Assembly: GCF_018388465.1 (NCBI RefSeq)
Contig: NZ_CP074404.1
Location: forward strand, 2,728,001-2,792,000
Source of the DNA: Cellulomonas fengjieae
Lineage (GTDB): Bacteria > Actinomycetota > Actinomycetes > Actinomycetales > Cellulomonadaceae
Length of the DNA stretch: 64,000 nt
Reading direction: 5' to 3'
In this document: positions 58,794 through 64,000 of the stretch, piece after piece
Layout: each line of letters starts with the position of its first letter
Numbering within the stretch: position 1 is the stretch's first letter
Translations under genes and position numbers: made by a program
Notes under the pieces: model-generated
Databases searched by the model: none
Told to the model about the DNA's origin: nothing
What the model saw: only the letters and a program-made list of their open reading frames with translations

Positions 58794-59606
58794 TCAGAGG
58801 TCGTACTCGACGACGACGGGGGCGTGATCCGAGAACCGCTCGGCATAGGTGGCCGCACGGTCCACGGTCGCGCTGACCGCCGCGTCCGCCAGGTCGGGCG
58901 TCGCCAGCTGGTAGTCGATGCGCCAGCCGGCGTCGTTGTCGAACGCCTGCCCGCGCCACGACCACCACGTGTACGGCCCGGGCCCCTCGCCGCCGAGCTC
59001 GCGGCCGAGGTCGTGCCAGCCCAGGTCGTCGAACCAGCGGTCGAGGTAGGCGCGCTCGCGCGGCAGGAAGCCCGCGGACTTGAGGTTGCCCTTCCAGTTC
59101 TTGATGTCCGCCTCGCGGTGCGCGATGTTCACGTCCCCCGCGACGACGGCATACCCGCCGCGATCGGCGAGCTCCGCCAGCCGTGCGGTGACGTGGTCCA
59201 GGAACGCGTACTTCTCGTCCATCGACGGCGTCCCGAGCGTGCCGGAGTGCAGGTACGTCGACACGACCGTGAGGGTCCGCGCCGGTGTCCCCTCGCGCGC
59301 GGGCAGCTCCAGGTCCGCCTCCACCCAACGCCCGGAGTCCCCCGTCACGCCGGTCCCCAGACCGATCCGCACGGCGGTCATGGGCAGTCGGCTGGCGATG
59401 GCGACGCCCGCACGTCCCTTGGTCTCGCTGGCCTCGTGCGCCAGGTCCCACTCGCCCGTCGGCAGGTGGTCGGCCAGGATCTCGTCGGAGGCGCGCACCT
59501 CCTGCAGGAGGACGACGTCGGGCCGGCGCGCCTCCAACCAGGCACCCATGCCTCGCTTGTACGCGGCCCTGATGCCGTTGACGTTCACGCTCGCGATGGT
59601 CAGCAC
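58794..59606 (-). CDS. xthA: exodeoxyribonuclease III (AP endonuclease)
   Basis: 270 residues from GTG at 59606 (a TTGGAT box lies 6 bases upstream, suggesting a leaderless mRNA). EEP-family motifs: SVNVNGIRAA, LLQEVRASDE (Glu), VVSTYLHSG, VAGDVNIAHREADI (Asp/Asn), and SDHAPVVVEYD at the end with the catalytic Asp-His. ExoIII cuts DNA at abasic sites and degrades 3' ends in base-excision repair. It is followed by a convergent area with no operon partner. Confidence 0.92.
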   Translation of the reverse strand: MLTIASVNVNGIRAAYKRGMGAWLEARRPDVVLLQEVRASDEILADHLPTGEWDLAHEASETKGRAGVAIASRLPMTAVRIGLGTGVTGDSGRWVEADLELPAREGTPARTLTVVSTYLHSGTLGTPSMDEKYAFLDHVTARLAELADRGGYAVVAGDVNIAHREADIKNWKGNLKSAGFLPRERAYLDRWFDDLGWHDLGRELGGEGPGPYTWWSWRGQAFDNDAGWRIDYQLATPDLADAAVSATVDRAATYAERFSDHAPVVVEYDL

Positions 59607-59652
59607 CGGACCATCCAACCTCAGCCCGCGGAGGGCTCCGACCACGTCGAGC

Positions 59653-60132
59653 TCACTCGCCCCGGTACGCCGCCTCCAGCGCCGCGACGTCCAGCTTGTC
59701 CATCGTGAGCATCGCCGCCATGGCGCGGGCGACCCCCGGGGCGTCCGGCCGGGACATCACGTCGTCGAGCTGGACGGGCACCACCTGCCAGGAGACGCCG
59801 AACCTGTCGACGAGCCACCCGCACCGGCTCGGCCGGCCACCGTCGGCGGTGAGCGTCTCCCAGTAGTGGTCGACCTCGGCCTGGTCCTGGCAGTCGAGGA
59901 CGAAGGAGAACGCCTCGTCGAGCGTGAAGTGCGGCCCGCCGTTGAGGAACGTCGCGCGCATGCCGTCGATGGTCAGCTCGACGATGAACTCGGCGCCCTC
60001 GACGACTCCGGGGGTGCCGGGGGGTGCCGTCGCGACGGAGTGGATCGTGGTGTTCGGGATCACGGACGCGTAGAACCTGGCGGCCGGCACGGCCTGGTCG
60101 TCGAACCAGAGGTGCGGACGGACGATGCCCAT
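59653..60132 (-). CDS. VOC family (PhnB/3-demethylubiquinone methyltransferase-like) protein
   Basis: 159 residues with GGGGAGGAG upstream. The sequence PHLWFDDQAVPAARFYASV, FLNGGPHFTLDEAFSFVLD and GGRPSRCGWLVDRFGVSWQV is the PhnB-type VOC family of paired beta-alpha-beta-beta-beta modules. Its activity is unknown; metal-binding or enzyme-like roles are possible. It lies 68 bases after folD, with CCCCGATCGGGG (60183-60194) and another short hairpin in the gap, and may be read through from the folD transcript. Confidence 0.85.
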   Translation of the reverse strand: MGIVRPHLWFDDQAVPAARFYASVIPNTTIHSVATAPPGTPGVVEGAEFIVELTIDGMRATFLNGGPHFTLDEAFSFVLDCQDQAEVDHYWETLTADGGRPSRCGWLVDRFGVSWQVVPVQLDDVMSRPDAPGVARAMAAMLTMDKLDVAALEAAYRGE

Positions 60133-60200: not shown

Positions 60201-61082
60201 TCAGCCCAGCAGCCGCTCGGCGGTCTCCACCACGTTCGTCAGCAGCATCGCGCGCGTCATCGGCCCGACGCCGCCCGGGTTGGGCGAGACCCAGGAGGCC
60301 ACCTCACGGACCCCGGGGTCGACGTCGCCGACCACCCGGCTCTTGCCGGTCTCGGCGTCGACGGAACGCGAGACACCGACGTCGATGACCGCCGCACCCG
60401 GCTTGATCATGTCCGCGGTGATGATCCCGGGAACGCCGGCCGCGGCGATGACCACGTCGGCGTTCCGGGTGTGCTCGGACAGCTCCTCGGTTCCCGTGTG
60501 GGTCAGCGTGACCGTCGCGTTGATCTCGCGGCGGGTCAGCAGGAGCCCGATCGAGCGCCCGACGGTGACACCCCGCCCGACGACGACGACGTCCGCGCCG
60601 TGCAGGTCGATGTCGTGCCGCAGGAGCAGCTCGATGATGCCCCGCGGGGTGCACGGCAACGGCGACGTGACCGGCTCGTTGACCCGCAGGACCAGGCGAC
60701 CGAGGTTCGTCGGGTGCAGCCCGTCCGCGTCCTTGCCGGGGTCGACCAGCTCCAGCACCCGGTTGGTGTCCACGCCCGTGGGCAGTGGCAGCTGCACGAT
60801 GAACCCGGTGCACTCCGGGTCCTCGTTCAGCCGGTGGACCGCCGCCTCGATCTCGTCCTGCGTGGCCGTGGCGGGCAGGTCCTCACGGATCGAGGCGATG
60901 CCCACCTCGGCGCAGTCCTTGTGCTTGCCCGCGACGTACCAGCGGGAGCCCGGGTCGTCGCCGACGAGCAGCGTGCCGAGCCCGGGACGGACGCCCCGGG
61001 CCGCGAGCGCTGCCACCCGCTCGGTGAGCTCGGCCTTGATCCGGGCGGCGGCGGCCGTCCCGTCGAGCAGCTGGGCCGTCAT
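60201..61082 (-). CDS. folD: methylenetetrahydrofolate dehydrogenase / cyclohydrolase
   Basis: 293 residues from the ATG overlapping the glyA stop (ATGA). Substrate-site Lys lies in the [12 protein letters not shown] segment (YxxxK), the catalytic region includes [10 protein letters not shown], and the NADP site is [17 protein letters not shown]. The enzyme interconverts 5,10-methylene-THF and 10-formyl-THF. It is translated with glyA, whose leader carries a ZTP riboswitch, so both are controlled by folate/purine status. Confidence 0.95.
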
Positions 61083-62371
61083 CAGTACTGCTGCAGGTCG
61101 GAGTACAGCGGGAACGCGTCGGTGAGCTTGAGCACCCGCGCGCGCAGCGCCTCGAGGTCCGTGGCGGCGCCGTTGACGAGCGCGGTCGCGATGATGTCCG
61201 CCACCTCGGTGAACTCGACGTCGCCGAAGCCGCGGGTCGCCAGTGCGGGTGTGCCGATGCGCAAGCCGGACGTGACCCGTGCGGGGCGCGGGTCGAAGGG
61301 CACCGCGTTGCGGTTCACCGTGACGCCGGCCGCGTGCAGGAGGTCCTCGGCCTGCTGACCGTCCAGCTCGGAGTGCCGGAGGTCGACGAGCACCAGGTGC
61401 ACGTCGGTGCCGCCGGTCAGGACCGAGACACCGGCCGCCGCGACGTCCGGCGCCGACAGCCGCTCCGCGATGATCCGGGCACCGTCGAGGGTGCGCTGCT
61501 GGCGGTCCTTGAACTCCTCGGTACCGGCCACCTTGAACGCGACGGCCTTGGCGGCGATCACGTGCATCAGCGGGCCGCCCTGCTGACCCGGGAAGACGGC
61601 TGAGTCGATCTTCTTGGCGTACTCCTCGCGGCTCAGGATGAAGCCCGACCGCGGGCCACCGATCGTCTTGTGCACCGTGGACGACACGACGTCCGAGTGC
61701 GGCACCGGGCTCGGGTGCAGGCCGGCGGCGACCAGGCCGGCGAAGTGCGCCATGTCGACCCAGAGCTTGGCGCCGACCTCGTCGGCGATGGACCGGAACG
61801 CCGCGAAGTCGAGCTGGCGCGGGTACGCGGACCAGCCGCCGATGATGACGTCGGGACGCTGCTCGAGCGCGCGCTCCCGGACGACGTCCATGTCCACGAG
61901 GAACGTCTGCGGGTCCACGCCGTACGCGCCGACCTGGTAGAGCTTGCCCGAGAAGTTGATCTTCATGCCGTGCGTGAGGTGCCCGCCGTGGGCCAGCTCG
62001 AGGCCGAGGATCTTGTCGCCGGCGTTGATCAGGGCGTGCAGCACGGCGGCGTTGGCCGTGGCGCCCGAGTGCGGCTGGACGTTGGCGTGCTCGGCGCCGA
62101 ACAGCGCCTTGGCGCGGTCGATCGCGATGTTCTCCGCGATGTCGACCTGCTCGCAGCCGCCGTAGTAGCGCCGGCCGGGGTAGCCCTCGGCGTACTTGTT
62201 GGTGAGCACGGAGCCCTGCGCCTGCAGGACGGCGCGGGGCACGAAGTTCTCGCTCGCGATCATCTCGAGCGTGCCCTGCTGGCGGGCGAGCTCGCCGTCG
62301 AGGACGGCGGCGATCTCCGGGTCCAGCTGGGAGATGTTCTGGTCCATCAGGGGGATCTGGTCGGCGCTCAT
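61082..62371 (-). CDS. glyA: serine hydroxymethyltransferase
   Basis: 429 residues from ATG at 62371 with AGGAG 7 bases upstream. The PLP Lys is in [16 protein letters not shown], and the motif [14 protein letters not shown] confirms GlyA. It converts serine and THF to glycine and 5,10-methylene-THF, feeding folD in the same operon. The 5' leader contains a ZTP riboswitch and a separate promoter box. Confidence 0.97.
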
Positions 62372-62440
62372 GTGGCACTCCTGTCGGCAGTCAGCGTGTA
62401 CGCGCGCGTCCGGCACCCGCACACTCGTGTGTGGTGACCG

Positions 62441-62524
62441 GGGGCCCAGGCGTCCGACCCGTTGGTCTGCTGCTGCGTCGCTCCCCGGTGGTGACCCACC
62501 TCGCTGCGCCAGTCGCGACCGGCA
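62441..62524 (-). ncRNA. ZTP (pfl) riboswitch in the glyA-folD leader
   Basis: Conserved pfl-RNA elements occur in order on the minus strand: GCGACTGGCG (62507-62516), a GGTGG/CCACC hairpin leading into CCACCGGGGAGC (62480-62491), a variable linker, then GCCTGGGC (62444-62451). The GGGGAGC and GCCTGGG blocks are the signature of this riboswitch, which senses the purine-biosynthesis intermediate ZMP/ZTP and controls folate one-carbon genes. Downstream lies a CACAC/GTGTG hairpin and the glyA ribosome site, so a switch acting on transcription or translation is possible. Confidence 0.88.
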
Positions 62525-62525
62525 C

Positions 62526-62531
62526 AGAGTA
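62526..62531 (-). promoter_or_regulatory. -10 box of the glyA-folD operon
   Basis: TACTCT on the minus strand sits 2 bases upstream of the riboswitch, giving a transcript start about 7 bases later. The -35 region is not a clear consensus. Confidence 0.55.
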
Positions 62532-62650
62532 GCAAGCGGAACGGCGTACGGGAGCCTCGGCCACCAGCCGGTCGGCGGTTCGCATGCTGCCCCTGCGCGG
62601 GACGAGCGAGCGCAACACCCCGGCGCGTGACCCGCGACGGGCGGGGCTTC

Positions 62651-63142
62651 TCACGCCTCGGCGGTGTCCCCGAGGATCTTGCGCAGGTACGCGTACGTCA
62701 GGTCACCGGCGGTCTGGTCGTGCTGGTGCTCGTACCCGTGCTTGGCGTACAGCGCGATGTTCTGCACGGAGTCGCGGCCGGTGAACACCCAGACCTCCTC
62801 GATGCCCTCGGGCAGGTGCGGCAGGATCGCCATGAGCATCTGCGTGCCGAACCCCTGCCCCTGCAGGTCCGGGGCGACCGCGAACCGGCCGAGCGTCGCC
62901 TTGGTCCCCTCGACGAGCACCCGGATCGAGCCGACGAGCCGGTGCCCGTACCAGCCACCGAGGGTGATGACGCCGTCCTGCTGCAGGTCCGCCTGGAGCT
63001 CCTCGAGGGTCTGCGTGAGCGGCGGGATGTGCGGGTCGCCGTACTGCTGCGCCTCGGTGACGAACGCGGCCCGACGCAGCGTGAGCAGCTCGCCCGCGTC
63101 GTCGGGGGTCACGAAGCGGATGTCCAGGTCAGGCTGCGTCAT
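62651..63142 (-). CDS. GNAT family N-acetyltransferase
   Basis: 163 residues from ATG at 63142. The acetyl-CoA loop is LGRFAVAPDLQGQGFGTQML, and the flanking strands (GWYGHRLVGSIRVLVEG, EEVWVFTGRD) are GNAT. Substrate cannot be deduced. It is divergent from purU across 48 bases; a CACGAT 7 bases before the ATG may make it leaderless. Confidence 0.88.
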   Translation of the reverse strand: MTQPDLDIRFVTPDDAGELLTLRRAAFVTEAQQYGDPHIPPLTQTLEELQADLQQDGVITLGGWYGHRLVGSIRVLVEGTKATLGRFAVAPDLQGQGFGTQMLMAILPHLPEGIEEVWVFTGRDSVQNIALYAKHGYEHQHDQTAGDLTYAYLRKILGDTAEA

Positions 63143-63176
63143 GCGGCCCATCGTGTCAGCCGATCCGCACGACCAC

Positions 63177-63182
63177 TACTCT
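63177..63182 (+). promoter_or_regulatory. -10 box for the purU gene
   Basis: TACTCT is followed by 8 bases and then the GTG at 63191, without a Shine-Dalgarno. The spacing fits a leaderless mRNA. Confidence 0.5.
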
Positions 63183-63190
63183 CGGACCTC

Positions 63191-64000
63191 GTGTCCTACG
63201 ACTCACCTGCCTCCGTCCACTGGGTCCTGACCCTCTCCTGCCCCGACCGCCCCGGGATCGTGCACGCGGTCGCCGGGGTGCTGGCCGAGCACGGCGGAAA
63301 CATCACCGAGTCGCAGCAGTTCGGCGACCCGCTGTCGGGGCTCTTCTTCATGCGGGTGCAGGTCACCGCATCGACGCCGCGCGCCGAGCTGGAGCAGGCG
63401 TTCGAGTCGATCGCCGCCACGTTCGAGATGGACTGGTCGCTCGACGTCGCCGGCCGGCCGGTCCGGACGCTGGTCATGGGCTCGACGGCCGCGCACTGCC
63501 TGAACGACCTGGCGTTCCGGCAGCGCTCGGAGAACCTGCCGATCGACCTGGTCGCCGTGGTCTCCAACCACACCACGCTGGCACCGCTGGCCGAGTTCTA
63601 CGACATCCCGTTCCACCACGTCCCGGTCACGGCGGCGACGAAGCAGCAGGCCGAGTCGCGCCTGCTCGAGCTGGTCGAGGAGCTGGACGTCGAGCTGGTG
63701 GTGCTCGCGCGCTACATGCAGATCCTCTCCGACGACCTGTGTCGGGCGCTGCAGGGCCGCGTGATCAACATCCACCACTCGTTCCTGCCGTCCTTCAAGG
63801 GCGCGCGGCCGTACGCGCAGGCCCACGACCGCGGCGTGAAGCTGATCGGCGCGACGGCGCACTACGTCACCGGGGACCTGGACGAGGGCCCGATCATCGA
63901 GCAGGACGTGGAGCGGGTGGACCACTCGCGCCACGTCGAGGACCTGGTGGCCCTGGGCCAGGACGTCGAGCGCCGCGCCCTCGCGCGTGCCGTCCGCTGG
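63191..64000 (+). CDS. purU: formyltetrahydrofolate deformylase (3' end cut by window)
   Basis: 270 residues are visible, about 15 fewer than the usual length, so the C-terminus lies beyond the window. An N-terminal ACT domain (SCPDRPGIVHAVAGVLAEHG, residues about 16-90) is followed by the formyl-transferase fold with VINIHHSFLPSFKGARPY and the catalytic GDLDEGPIIEQD (Asp). PurU hydrolyses 10-formyl-THF to formate and THF, balancing the folate pool served by glyA and folD next door. Confidence 0.93.
   Translation, partial: MSYDSPASVHWVLTLSCPDRPGIVHAVAGVLAEHGGNITESQQFGDPLSGLFFMRVQVTASTPRAELEQAFESIAATFEMDWSLDVAGRPVRTLVMGSTAAHCLNDLAFRQRSENLPIDLVAVVSNHTTLAPLAEFYDIPFHHVPVTAATKQQAESRLLELVEELDVELVVLARYMQILSDDLCRALQGRVINIHHSFLPSFKGARPYAQAHDRGVKLIGATAHYVTGDLDEGPIIEQDVERVDHSRHVEDLVALGQDVERRALARAVRW

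Follow-up and report, generated by a model that had tools for sequence, protein, structure and literature searches.

A ZTP riboswitch before glyA-folD in a Cellulomonas genome and a possible translational output through its interdomain linker

The window (i.e. the whole stretch of 64,000 nucleotides of Cellulomonas DNA that was analysed) contains a ZTP riboswitch aptamer before glyA, which confirms the observation made in the initial annotation. The riboswitch is real and its class, likely ligand and target genes are ordinary, while the binding of ZMP/ZTP is predicted from the aptamer sequence. As to its output, we give a probability of about one half to the reading that this riboswitch, with which the glyA-folD mRNA would begin, switches translation on in response to ligand, via a helix (the clamp, PX) between the linker that joins its two domains and the bases just before the glyA Shine-Dalgarno sequence. 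The complementarity behind this reading is matched lineage by lineage in the taxonomic family, which argues for the clamp at that level, while for this single leader it is a candidate; it would be a reasonable and testable variant of the output stage. The elements concerned, all on the minus strand, are the following.

62526..62535: extended -10-like element TTGC-TACTCT (hexamer 62531-62526), with a probable transcription start at ~62520-62519
62437..62526: ZMP-ZTP riboswitch aptamer (RF01750, 54.2 bits, E 4.8e-6)
62519-62515 with 62481-62477: P1 (sequence, Rfam alignment)
62510-62507: pseudoknot strand GGCG, in the junction with ACTGGCG (sequence, Rfam alignment)
62500-62496 with 62491-62487: P2 (sequence, Rfam alignment)
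62486-62480: GGGGAGC (sequence, Rfam alignment)
62461..62476: inter-domain linker between P1 and P3, GCAGCAGCAGACCAAC, whose first 8 bases (62476-62469) would supply the 5' side of PX
62460-62456 with 62446-62442: P3 hairpin (Rfam alignment)
62452-62449: second pseudoknot strand, P3 loop CGCC (Rfam alignment)
62410..62441: P4 hairpin, containing CACAC/GTGTG, directly after P3 and without a U-tract (genus consensus fold)
62387..62395: pre-Shine-Dalgarno box GCTGACTGC, which would provide the 3' side of PX in 8 pairs with one bulged A
62378..62382: Shine-Dalgarno AGGAG of glyA (sequence)
61082..62371: glyA, serine hydroxymethyltransferase, ATG at 62371-62369 (NCBIfam PRK00011, 582.4 bits, cut-off 335)
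60201..61082: folD, methylenetetrahydrofolate dehydrogenase/cyclohydrolase (NCBIfam PRK14193, 472.7 bits, cut-off 401)

Aptamer, promoter and genes

The Rfam model RF01750 (ZMP-ZTP, pfl) matches 62526-62437 over model positions 1-86 of 86, its E value referring to the 64-kb window searched on both strands, and the covariance-model check proposed in the initial annotation thus gave a score above the Rfam threshold (54.2 bits, the gathering score being 39). The pfl-RNA landmarks named there follow each other in order, i.e. GTCGCGACTGGCGCAGCG at 62519-62502, which contains the GCGACTGGCG that had been picked out, the GGTGG/CCACC stem within 62500-62487, GGGGAGC at 62486-62480 (sequence), and GCCTGGGC, which falls inside P3 (62460-62442). 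P1, P2, P3 and the pseudoknot strands GGCG and CGCC are in order as well (sequence and Rfam alignment), the pseudoknot being assigned by eye and unscored. At gathering thresholds the window holds two Rfam matches, namely ZMP-ZTP and a tRNA (8793-8720, minus strand, 63.6 bits, anticodon CAT (Met) as read from the alignment). Chance is excluded for the aptamer, since the family occurs in 2 of 14 well-known control genomes versus 60 of 60 genomes of the genus.

The genome itself (one contig of 3,989,908 bases) has two ZTP sites, of 54.2 and 47.4 bits, the second lying ~21 kb beyond the first and directly before purH (L121:3746-3835, 47.4 bits), with a TAGACT upstream of its core. Both aptamers are thus positioned in the 5' UTR of purine or one-carbon genes (glyA-folD and purH), the putative start being placed by promoter conservation. 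Among the 60 genus genomes searched, own included, all have the family and 55 have two sites; in the taxonomic family a site was found in 216 of 221 genomes (own included), in 195 of the 196 of good quality and in 25 of 25 genera, and in a sample of the order in 106 of 159 genomes and 47 of 65 genera. Classification of 121 loci, which include both own-genome sites twice, placed 106 before glyA and 15 before purH. In 87 of those 106 loci, and in all 42 genus leaders classified, glyA is followed by a folD start; the other 19 of the 106 have no folD within the sequence fetched, which possibly ended too early. A two-site regulon of this kind (glyA-folD and purH, 21 kb apart) joins the supply of formyl-THF to its use in purine synthesis.

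The position of the promoter is conserved. Of the glyA leaders, 44 of 52 in the genus, 60 of 64 in the family and 36 of 40 in the order carry a TANNNT hexamer 8-16 nt upstream of the aptamer core ACTGGC; the spacing is 12-13 nt in 44, 55 and 32 leaders, respectively. A control scan 30 nt further upstream gave 0/52, 0/64 and 1/40. A TG precedes the hexamer, in the style of an extended -10 element, in 43/44 genus, 28/60 family and 18/36 order leaders. The case for the -10 hexamer rests on this conservation in relatives, as the leader gave no promoter-like hit in a simple scan for the sigma-70 consensus. Since the hexamer keeps a fixed distance, the mRNA probably starts at the first base of P1. 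The initial annotation had placed TACTCT 2 bases before the RNA; the hexamer occupies 62531-62526, and the Rfam match begins at 62526, but the conserved first base of P1 (62519) comes six bases after the hexamer, so that the first bases of the Rfam match are probably not transcribed.

Part of what had been read from the locus is borne out: besides the aptamer, the identities of glyA and folD (both above their NCBIfam cut-offs), the coupling of the two genes, in which the glyA stop and the folD start overlap by one base (TGATG at 61082), the neighbouring purU (NCBIfam-based gene call in the window) and a Cellulomonas-like host, the best GlyA match among the 80 named loci kept being that of Cellulomonas sp. 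Leaf334 (96% identical). Two parts fare less well: the gene link is not new, and the hairpin as platform is weakened. The link of the riboswitch with glyA and folD, which belongs to the point of interest put forward, was already made in the 2010 paper in which Weinberg et al. described the pfl motif; of the five genes that it names, three are glyA, folD and purH, and its rationale for glyA and folD is that GlyA plus FolD produce formyl-THF from serine (PMC2864571, as excerpted). The purU gene (formyltetrahydrofolate deformylase, plus strand, region 62627-64000) runs off the window end; as it lies on the other strand beyond an acetyltransferase-like ORF (62651-63151, between the riboswitch locus and purU, no NCBIfam match at 1e-10), three formyl-THF enzymes are found within 4 kb. 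On the 3' side of folD, the same strand carries a short ORF without an NCBIfam match at 1e-10 (59653-60132), followed by exodeoxyribonuclease III (58794-59645, minus strand).

The P4 hairpin and termination

A consensus fold computed from the 39 unique leaders of the genus includes P4. Two of its pairs change on both sides, one being A-U in 16 leaders and G-C in 8, another C-G in 13, U-A in 5 and A-U in 2. The suggestion that the CACAC/GTGTG hairpin serves as the expression platform is therefore right as to the hairpin, which is real and has paired changes in the genus, and weakened as to its role: it has no U-tract, its 3' end lies 38 nt upstream of the start codon, and its 5' arm has no lineage-matched pairing with the start region in genus and family. 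The span originally marked does include the pairing now favoured (62476-62469 with 62395-62387), which is not that hairpin.

A pairing of the P4 5' arm with the pre-Shine-Dalgarno box (CGGTCA/TGACTG), as seen in several local folds, was rejected, because swaps gave a permutation p of 0.89 in the genus and 0.87 in the family; in the order it reached p 0.0098, but 0.32 against shuffles, and a non-transcribed control stretch did equally well. A direct count of P4 pairs is uninformative, since longer local folds often took the place of P4. The words GACC (62467-62464, before P3) and GGTC (62439-62436, after it) recur in most leaders inspected and could extend P3, which would put GGTC in competition with P4; both words vary little.

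Termination without a U-tract, or aided by NusG, has been discussed for high-GC bacteria, and by analogy with the canonical ZTP mechanism P4 might act as a transcription terminator of this kind unless ligand holds P3. That P4 abuts P3 without a spacer, and that its 5' arm GGTC can alternatively pair with the GACC before P3, would suit such an arrangement, as would the two-sided changes and the stability of the 42 nt after P3 relative to dinucleotide shuffles (mean z -1.20 in 52 genus leaders), and it is how the ZTP riboswitches described in PMC7337938 and PMC10085676 stop transcription. However, a terminator scan of the leader returned 0 intrinsic terminators, and a U-tract is absent between P3 and the start in the genus (at most 3 T per 8-nt window in 42 of 42 leaders). 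In the same interval, family leaders have at most 3 T per 8-nt window in 46 of 63 cases, 4 in 12 and 5 in 5. The intrinsic terminator with a U-tract overlapping P3, by which a terminator-type ZTP riboswitch is recognised, was not found in the leader. Moreover, the signal of the hairpin is weaker in the family (-0.67, 64 leaders) and in the order (-0.20, 34 glyA leaders), and termination at P4 leaves the complementarity of the linker (see below) unexplained. We consider it unlikely that termination at P4 is the output stage.

Proposed pairing between the linker and the region of the ribosome-binding site

In the window, the proposed clamp consists of GCAGCAGC (62476-62469) paired with the pre-Shine-Dalgarno box (62395-62387), and stops 4 nt before AGGAG without covering it. 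Other genera differ on both sides, with L034, L038, L042, L064 and others pairing other linkers with other boxes, and in the relatives L036, L048, L060 and L063 the Shine-Dalgarno sequence itself is paired by the linker. The RNAalifold consensus of the 39 unique genus leaders also contains the linker-box helix, with 8 pairs that are each kept in 28 to 36 of the 39. Conserved pairing that covers or abuts the Shine-Dalgarno sequence finds support when the family's genera are compared, and in the consensus fold of the genus, with the limits that the window helix abuts that sequence only and that two-sided changes within the genus are nearly absent. As to the position of the helix, its end falls 0-5 nt before the Shine-Dalgarno sequence in 34 of 64 family leaders, compared to 35% among swapped pairs. 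Its start adjoins P1 in 43 of 51 leaders in the genus and in 46 of 64 in the family, which is no evidence, because swapped pairs do the same at 84% and 67%.

For twelve pairs of leader regions, the pairing energy was compared between a leader's own partner, partners from other leaders and shuffled partners (with an earlier definition of the linker, used for the helix list too, and excluding 9 leaders with AGGGAGC for GGGGAGC as well as very short linkers). A single combination, the linker with the 40 nt that precede the start, outperformed swapped as well as shuffled partners in genus and family alike; in 48 family leaders the values were -12.2 (own), -9.7 (other leaders, 7.3e-7) and -9.4 (shuffled, 6.7e-9). 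For P1 plus linker this held in the family alone (p 0.003 and 0.005); the combination of P2 with the region after P3 was better than shuffles, not than swaps. Masking of the Shine-Dalgarno sequence by the 5' part of the aptamer or by P2 gave no signal in this test and was rejected. A second candidate, masking of the start codon by P3 (GGTCGGACGCC with GGCGCCGACC in the first glyA codons, from the free fold of the window), was dropped as well, there being no matched P3/start pairing in relatives.

To allow for the non-independence of related leaders, the comparison was made per genus, with 65 leaders in 23 genera. Own partners were better than swapped ones in 19, 19 and 20 of the 23 genera for the last 24, 30 and 40 nt, respectively (-12.42 own vs -10.14 kcal/mol swapped at 40 nt), with Wilcoxon p values of 1.1e-4, 9.1e-5 and 5.3e-5 and a block permutation p of 5e-5, which is the floor of 20,000 permutations. 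The contrary genera (3 of 23 at 40 nt, 4 of 23 at 24 and 30 nt) include those of L090, L092, L094 and L095, where a pairing of linker and Shine-Dalgarno sequence would be possible. When leader regions were mapped against positions around the start (5 x 7 cells), the two large effects are those of the linker with positions -30..-10 (-1.72 kcal/mol, p 3.4e-3) and -22..-2 (-2.21 kcal/mol, p 3.7e-3), next to two cells of the aptamer 5' part with p 0.030 and 0.049 (effects -0.78 and -0.65). In the matched-pairing controls, which used a linker one base shorter and for which 195 of 202 loci were parsed (204 less two repeats of the own sites), 192 of them unique, the aptamer 5' part, the region after P3 and the promoter stretch gave permutation p values of 0.82 to 0.87 against the same target in the family, and the linker against codons 3-8 gave 0.028.

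With definitions fixed beforehand, the comparison was repeated in fresh leaders, i.e. 30 family (7 genera) and 10 order glyA leaders left from 48 parsed of 54 loci after removal of purH sites, short linkers and repeats. The own partner was better in 30 of 30 family leaders at 24 nt and in 29 of 30 at both 30 and 40 nt (-14.70 vs -8.93 at 30 nt), the exception being a single g10 leader that disagrees at 30 and 40 nt; the 7 family genera all occur in the first set as well, and the p values of the replication treat leaders as independent.

Inside the genus, own partners beat dinucleotide shuffles (39 leaders, -12.79 vs -10.96 and -10.74, p 8e-5 and 5e-6), and swaps, which have little power here, gave p 0.016, or 0.15 with a linker one base shorter. 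With the register fixed, counted in 50 of the 52 genus leaders (2 with too short a linker excluded), all 8 pairs are kept in 24 leaders and at least 6 in 39. Most changes within the genus break clamp pairs, with an A.C at pair 6 in 14 leaders, and of 400 cells a single one has a two-sided change, its leader retaining 5 of 8 pairs; the consensus fold adds one further case, at one pair in 1 leader.

Extension of the clamp to other families or to purH is not supported. In other families of the order, own partners were better in 10, 9 and 5 of 12 (24, 30 and 40 nt), with Wilcoxon p values of 0.021, 0.026 and 0.49 and block permutation p values of 5e-5, 0.042 and 0.44; these values carry little, because control pairs in this set, even the non-transcribed promoter stretch, reach permutation p values of 0.005 to 0.01. 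The order replication was negative (4, 5 and 5 of 10 leaders; p 0.42, 0.25 and 0.31). Single order leaders have strong pairing of linker and pre-Shine-Dalgarno bases (L217 -22.7, L206 -12.3 and L207 -13.7 kcal/mol), within a set that is non-significant overall. For purH leaders a permutation p of 0.012 stands beside 0.47 against shuffles, and controls perform equally.

It could be argued that the complementarity is an accident of GC-rich, repetitive sequence, since GCAGCAGC-like repeats and CTG words are easily matched, genus swaps are uninformative, and controls are nominally significant by permutation in the order and purH sets. Within the family, however, genus-to-genus swaps, dinucleotide shuffles, the position map and the further leaders all favour the matched pair, and other leader regions (aptamer 5' part, region after P3, promoter) show no such preference against the same target; we hold such an accident to be very improbable.

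In folding predictions for the window leader, the expected number of clamp pairs is 0.1 in the free fold and 7.9 with P1 and P3 forced. With P1 and P3 forced, 29 of the 52 leaders of the genus and 45 of the 64 of the family reach at least 4 expected pairs, and the means (forced vs free) are 4.74 vs 3.73 in the genus and 5.71 vs 3.86 in the family. On paper, the clamp is compatible with P1-P3, and only tertiary docking could open it. The predicted openness of the Shine-Dalgarno sequence is similar in the free and the aptamer-forced fold (0.44 vs 0.39 in the genus, 0.40 vs 0.36 in the family), so that a model without tertiary docking shows no switching. The whole window leader folds no better than its shuffles (z 0.15).

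The same predictions would suit a permanent, stabilising helix beside P1 that does not switch, with regulation by something else, given that the secondary structure is compatible with P1, P2 and P3 and that the helix is stronger when P1 and P3 are forced. In L048 and L064, however, nearly the whole linker is paired, which would leave little single-stranded tether for P3 to dock, and a permanent helix covering the Shine-Dalgarno sequence (as in L048) would shut the gene for good. A static helix is, in our judgement, quite unlikely.

Proposed mechanism and comparison with known systems

For the Cellulomonas family in general, we put at somewhat less than an even chance the model in which the ZTP linker itself is the expression platform, pairing with the Shine-Dalgarno sequence or adjacent bases until ligand-driven docking of P3 opens the clamp mechanically, with no strand exchange within P3 and no terminator. 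In the window, the absence of ligand would allow linker bases 62476-62469 to pair with 62395-62387 just before the glyA Shine-Dalgarno sequence, in a helix that would adjoin P1, enclose P3 and P4, and crowd the ribosome-binding site (or cover it, in some relatives). When 10-formyl-THF is low and ZMP/ZTP rises, P3 would dock on P1-P2 through the pseudoknot, upon which the tether could no longer remain a stiff helix and the clamp would open. Translation of glyA, and of folD too via the TGATG overlap, would then restore formyl-THF. That ligand and clamp compete is suggested by the expectation that docking would be hindered while the linker is held in a helix, which is clearest in L048 and L064. 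The 2010 paper argued for the same direction, ON, in pfl RNAs (PMC2864571), and a demand for formyl-THF at rising ZTP agrees with it.

Blocked translation, whether by the clamp or otherwise, could also expose the leader to Rho or to RNA decay, in which case the switch would show at the mRNA level. Rho-type control is known for other actinobacterial leaders, and this one is long and has no U-tract. Alone, this route does not explain the covariation of the linker, although it is compatible with the clamp as an upstream step; as the explanation of the switch it seems rather improbable.

As for the class itself, Kim et al. (2015) is reportedly the ZMP/ZTP riboswitch paper. The ligand was settled in 2015, as told in PMC7266159. 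In its aptamer sequence and structure, its target genes and its expected ON logic, the riboswitch described here is the same as the RF01750 pfl class. The pfl RNAs of 2010 differ in that predicted terminators overlap the 3' part of many of them (PMC2864571), whereas none was seen in this leader. With the ZTP riboswitches of C. beijerinckii, T. carboxydivorans and F. ulcerans (PMC10085676, PMC10687018, PMC7337938, PMC7484762) it shares the aptamer, the ligand-dependent pseudoknot docking of P3 on P1-P2 (expected here) and a variable linker, but theirs act on intrinsic terminators that compete with P3. In C. beijerinckii, folding of the pseudoknot changes the reactivity of the P1-proximal linker bases (PMC10687018). 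A whole-riboswitch covariation study from 2026 models ZTP riboswitches selected for intrinsic terminators (PMC13273304). Among the literature matches listed, several of them represented by excerpts, no description was found of a linker pairing with the Shine-Dalgarno sequence or of a linker-based output of ZTP riboswitches, which is no proof of novelty.

ZTP riboswitches serve as a model of co-transcriptional switching, and the mechanisms described in the sources at hand are terminators. For GC-rich actinobacterial ZTP riboswitches without a U-tract, the clamp model would offer a specific answer, resting on sequences that vary together from genus to genus, and, if true, sensor and output would share the tether. 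The crystal structure of the Schaalia odontolytica ZTP riboswitch (PDB 4XW7/4XWF) likewise concerns an actinobacterial aptamer, although the Schaalia odontolytica-related entries are 64-nt constructs, with the expression platform outside what is described in the available part of that source (PMC12191101). Compared to these systems, the class and the glyA/folD targets are already known, while the element that would be new, if upheld, is the proposed output stage through a linker clamp.
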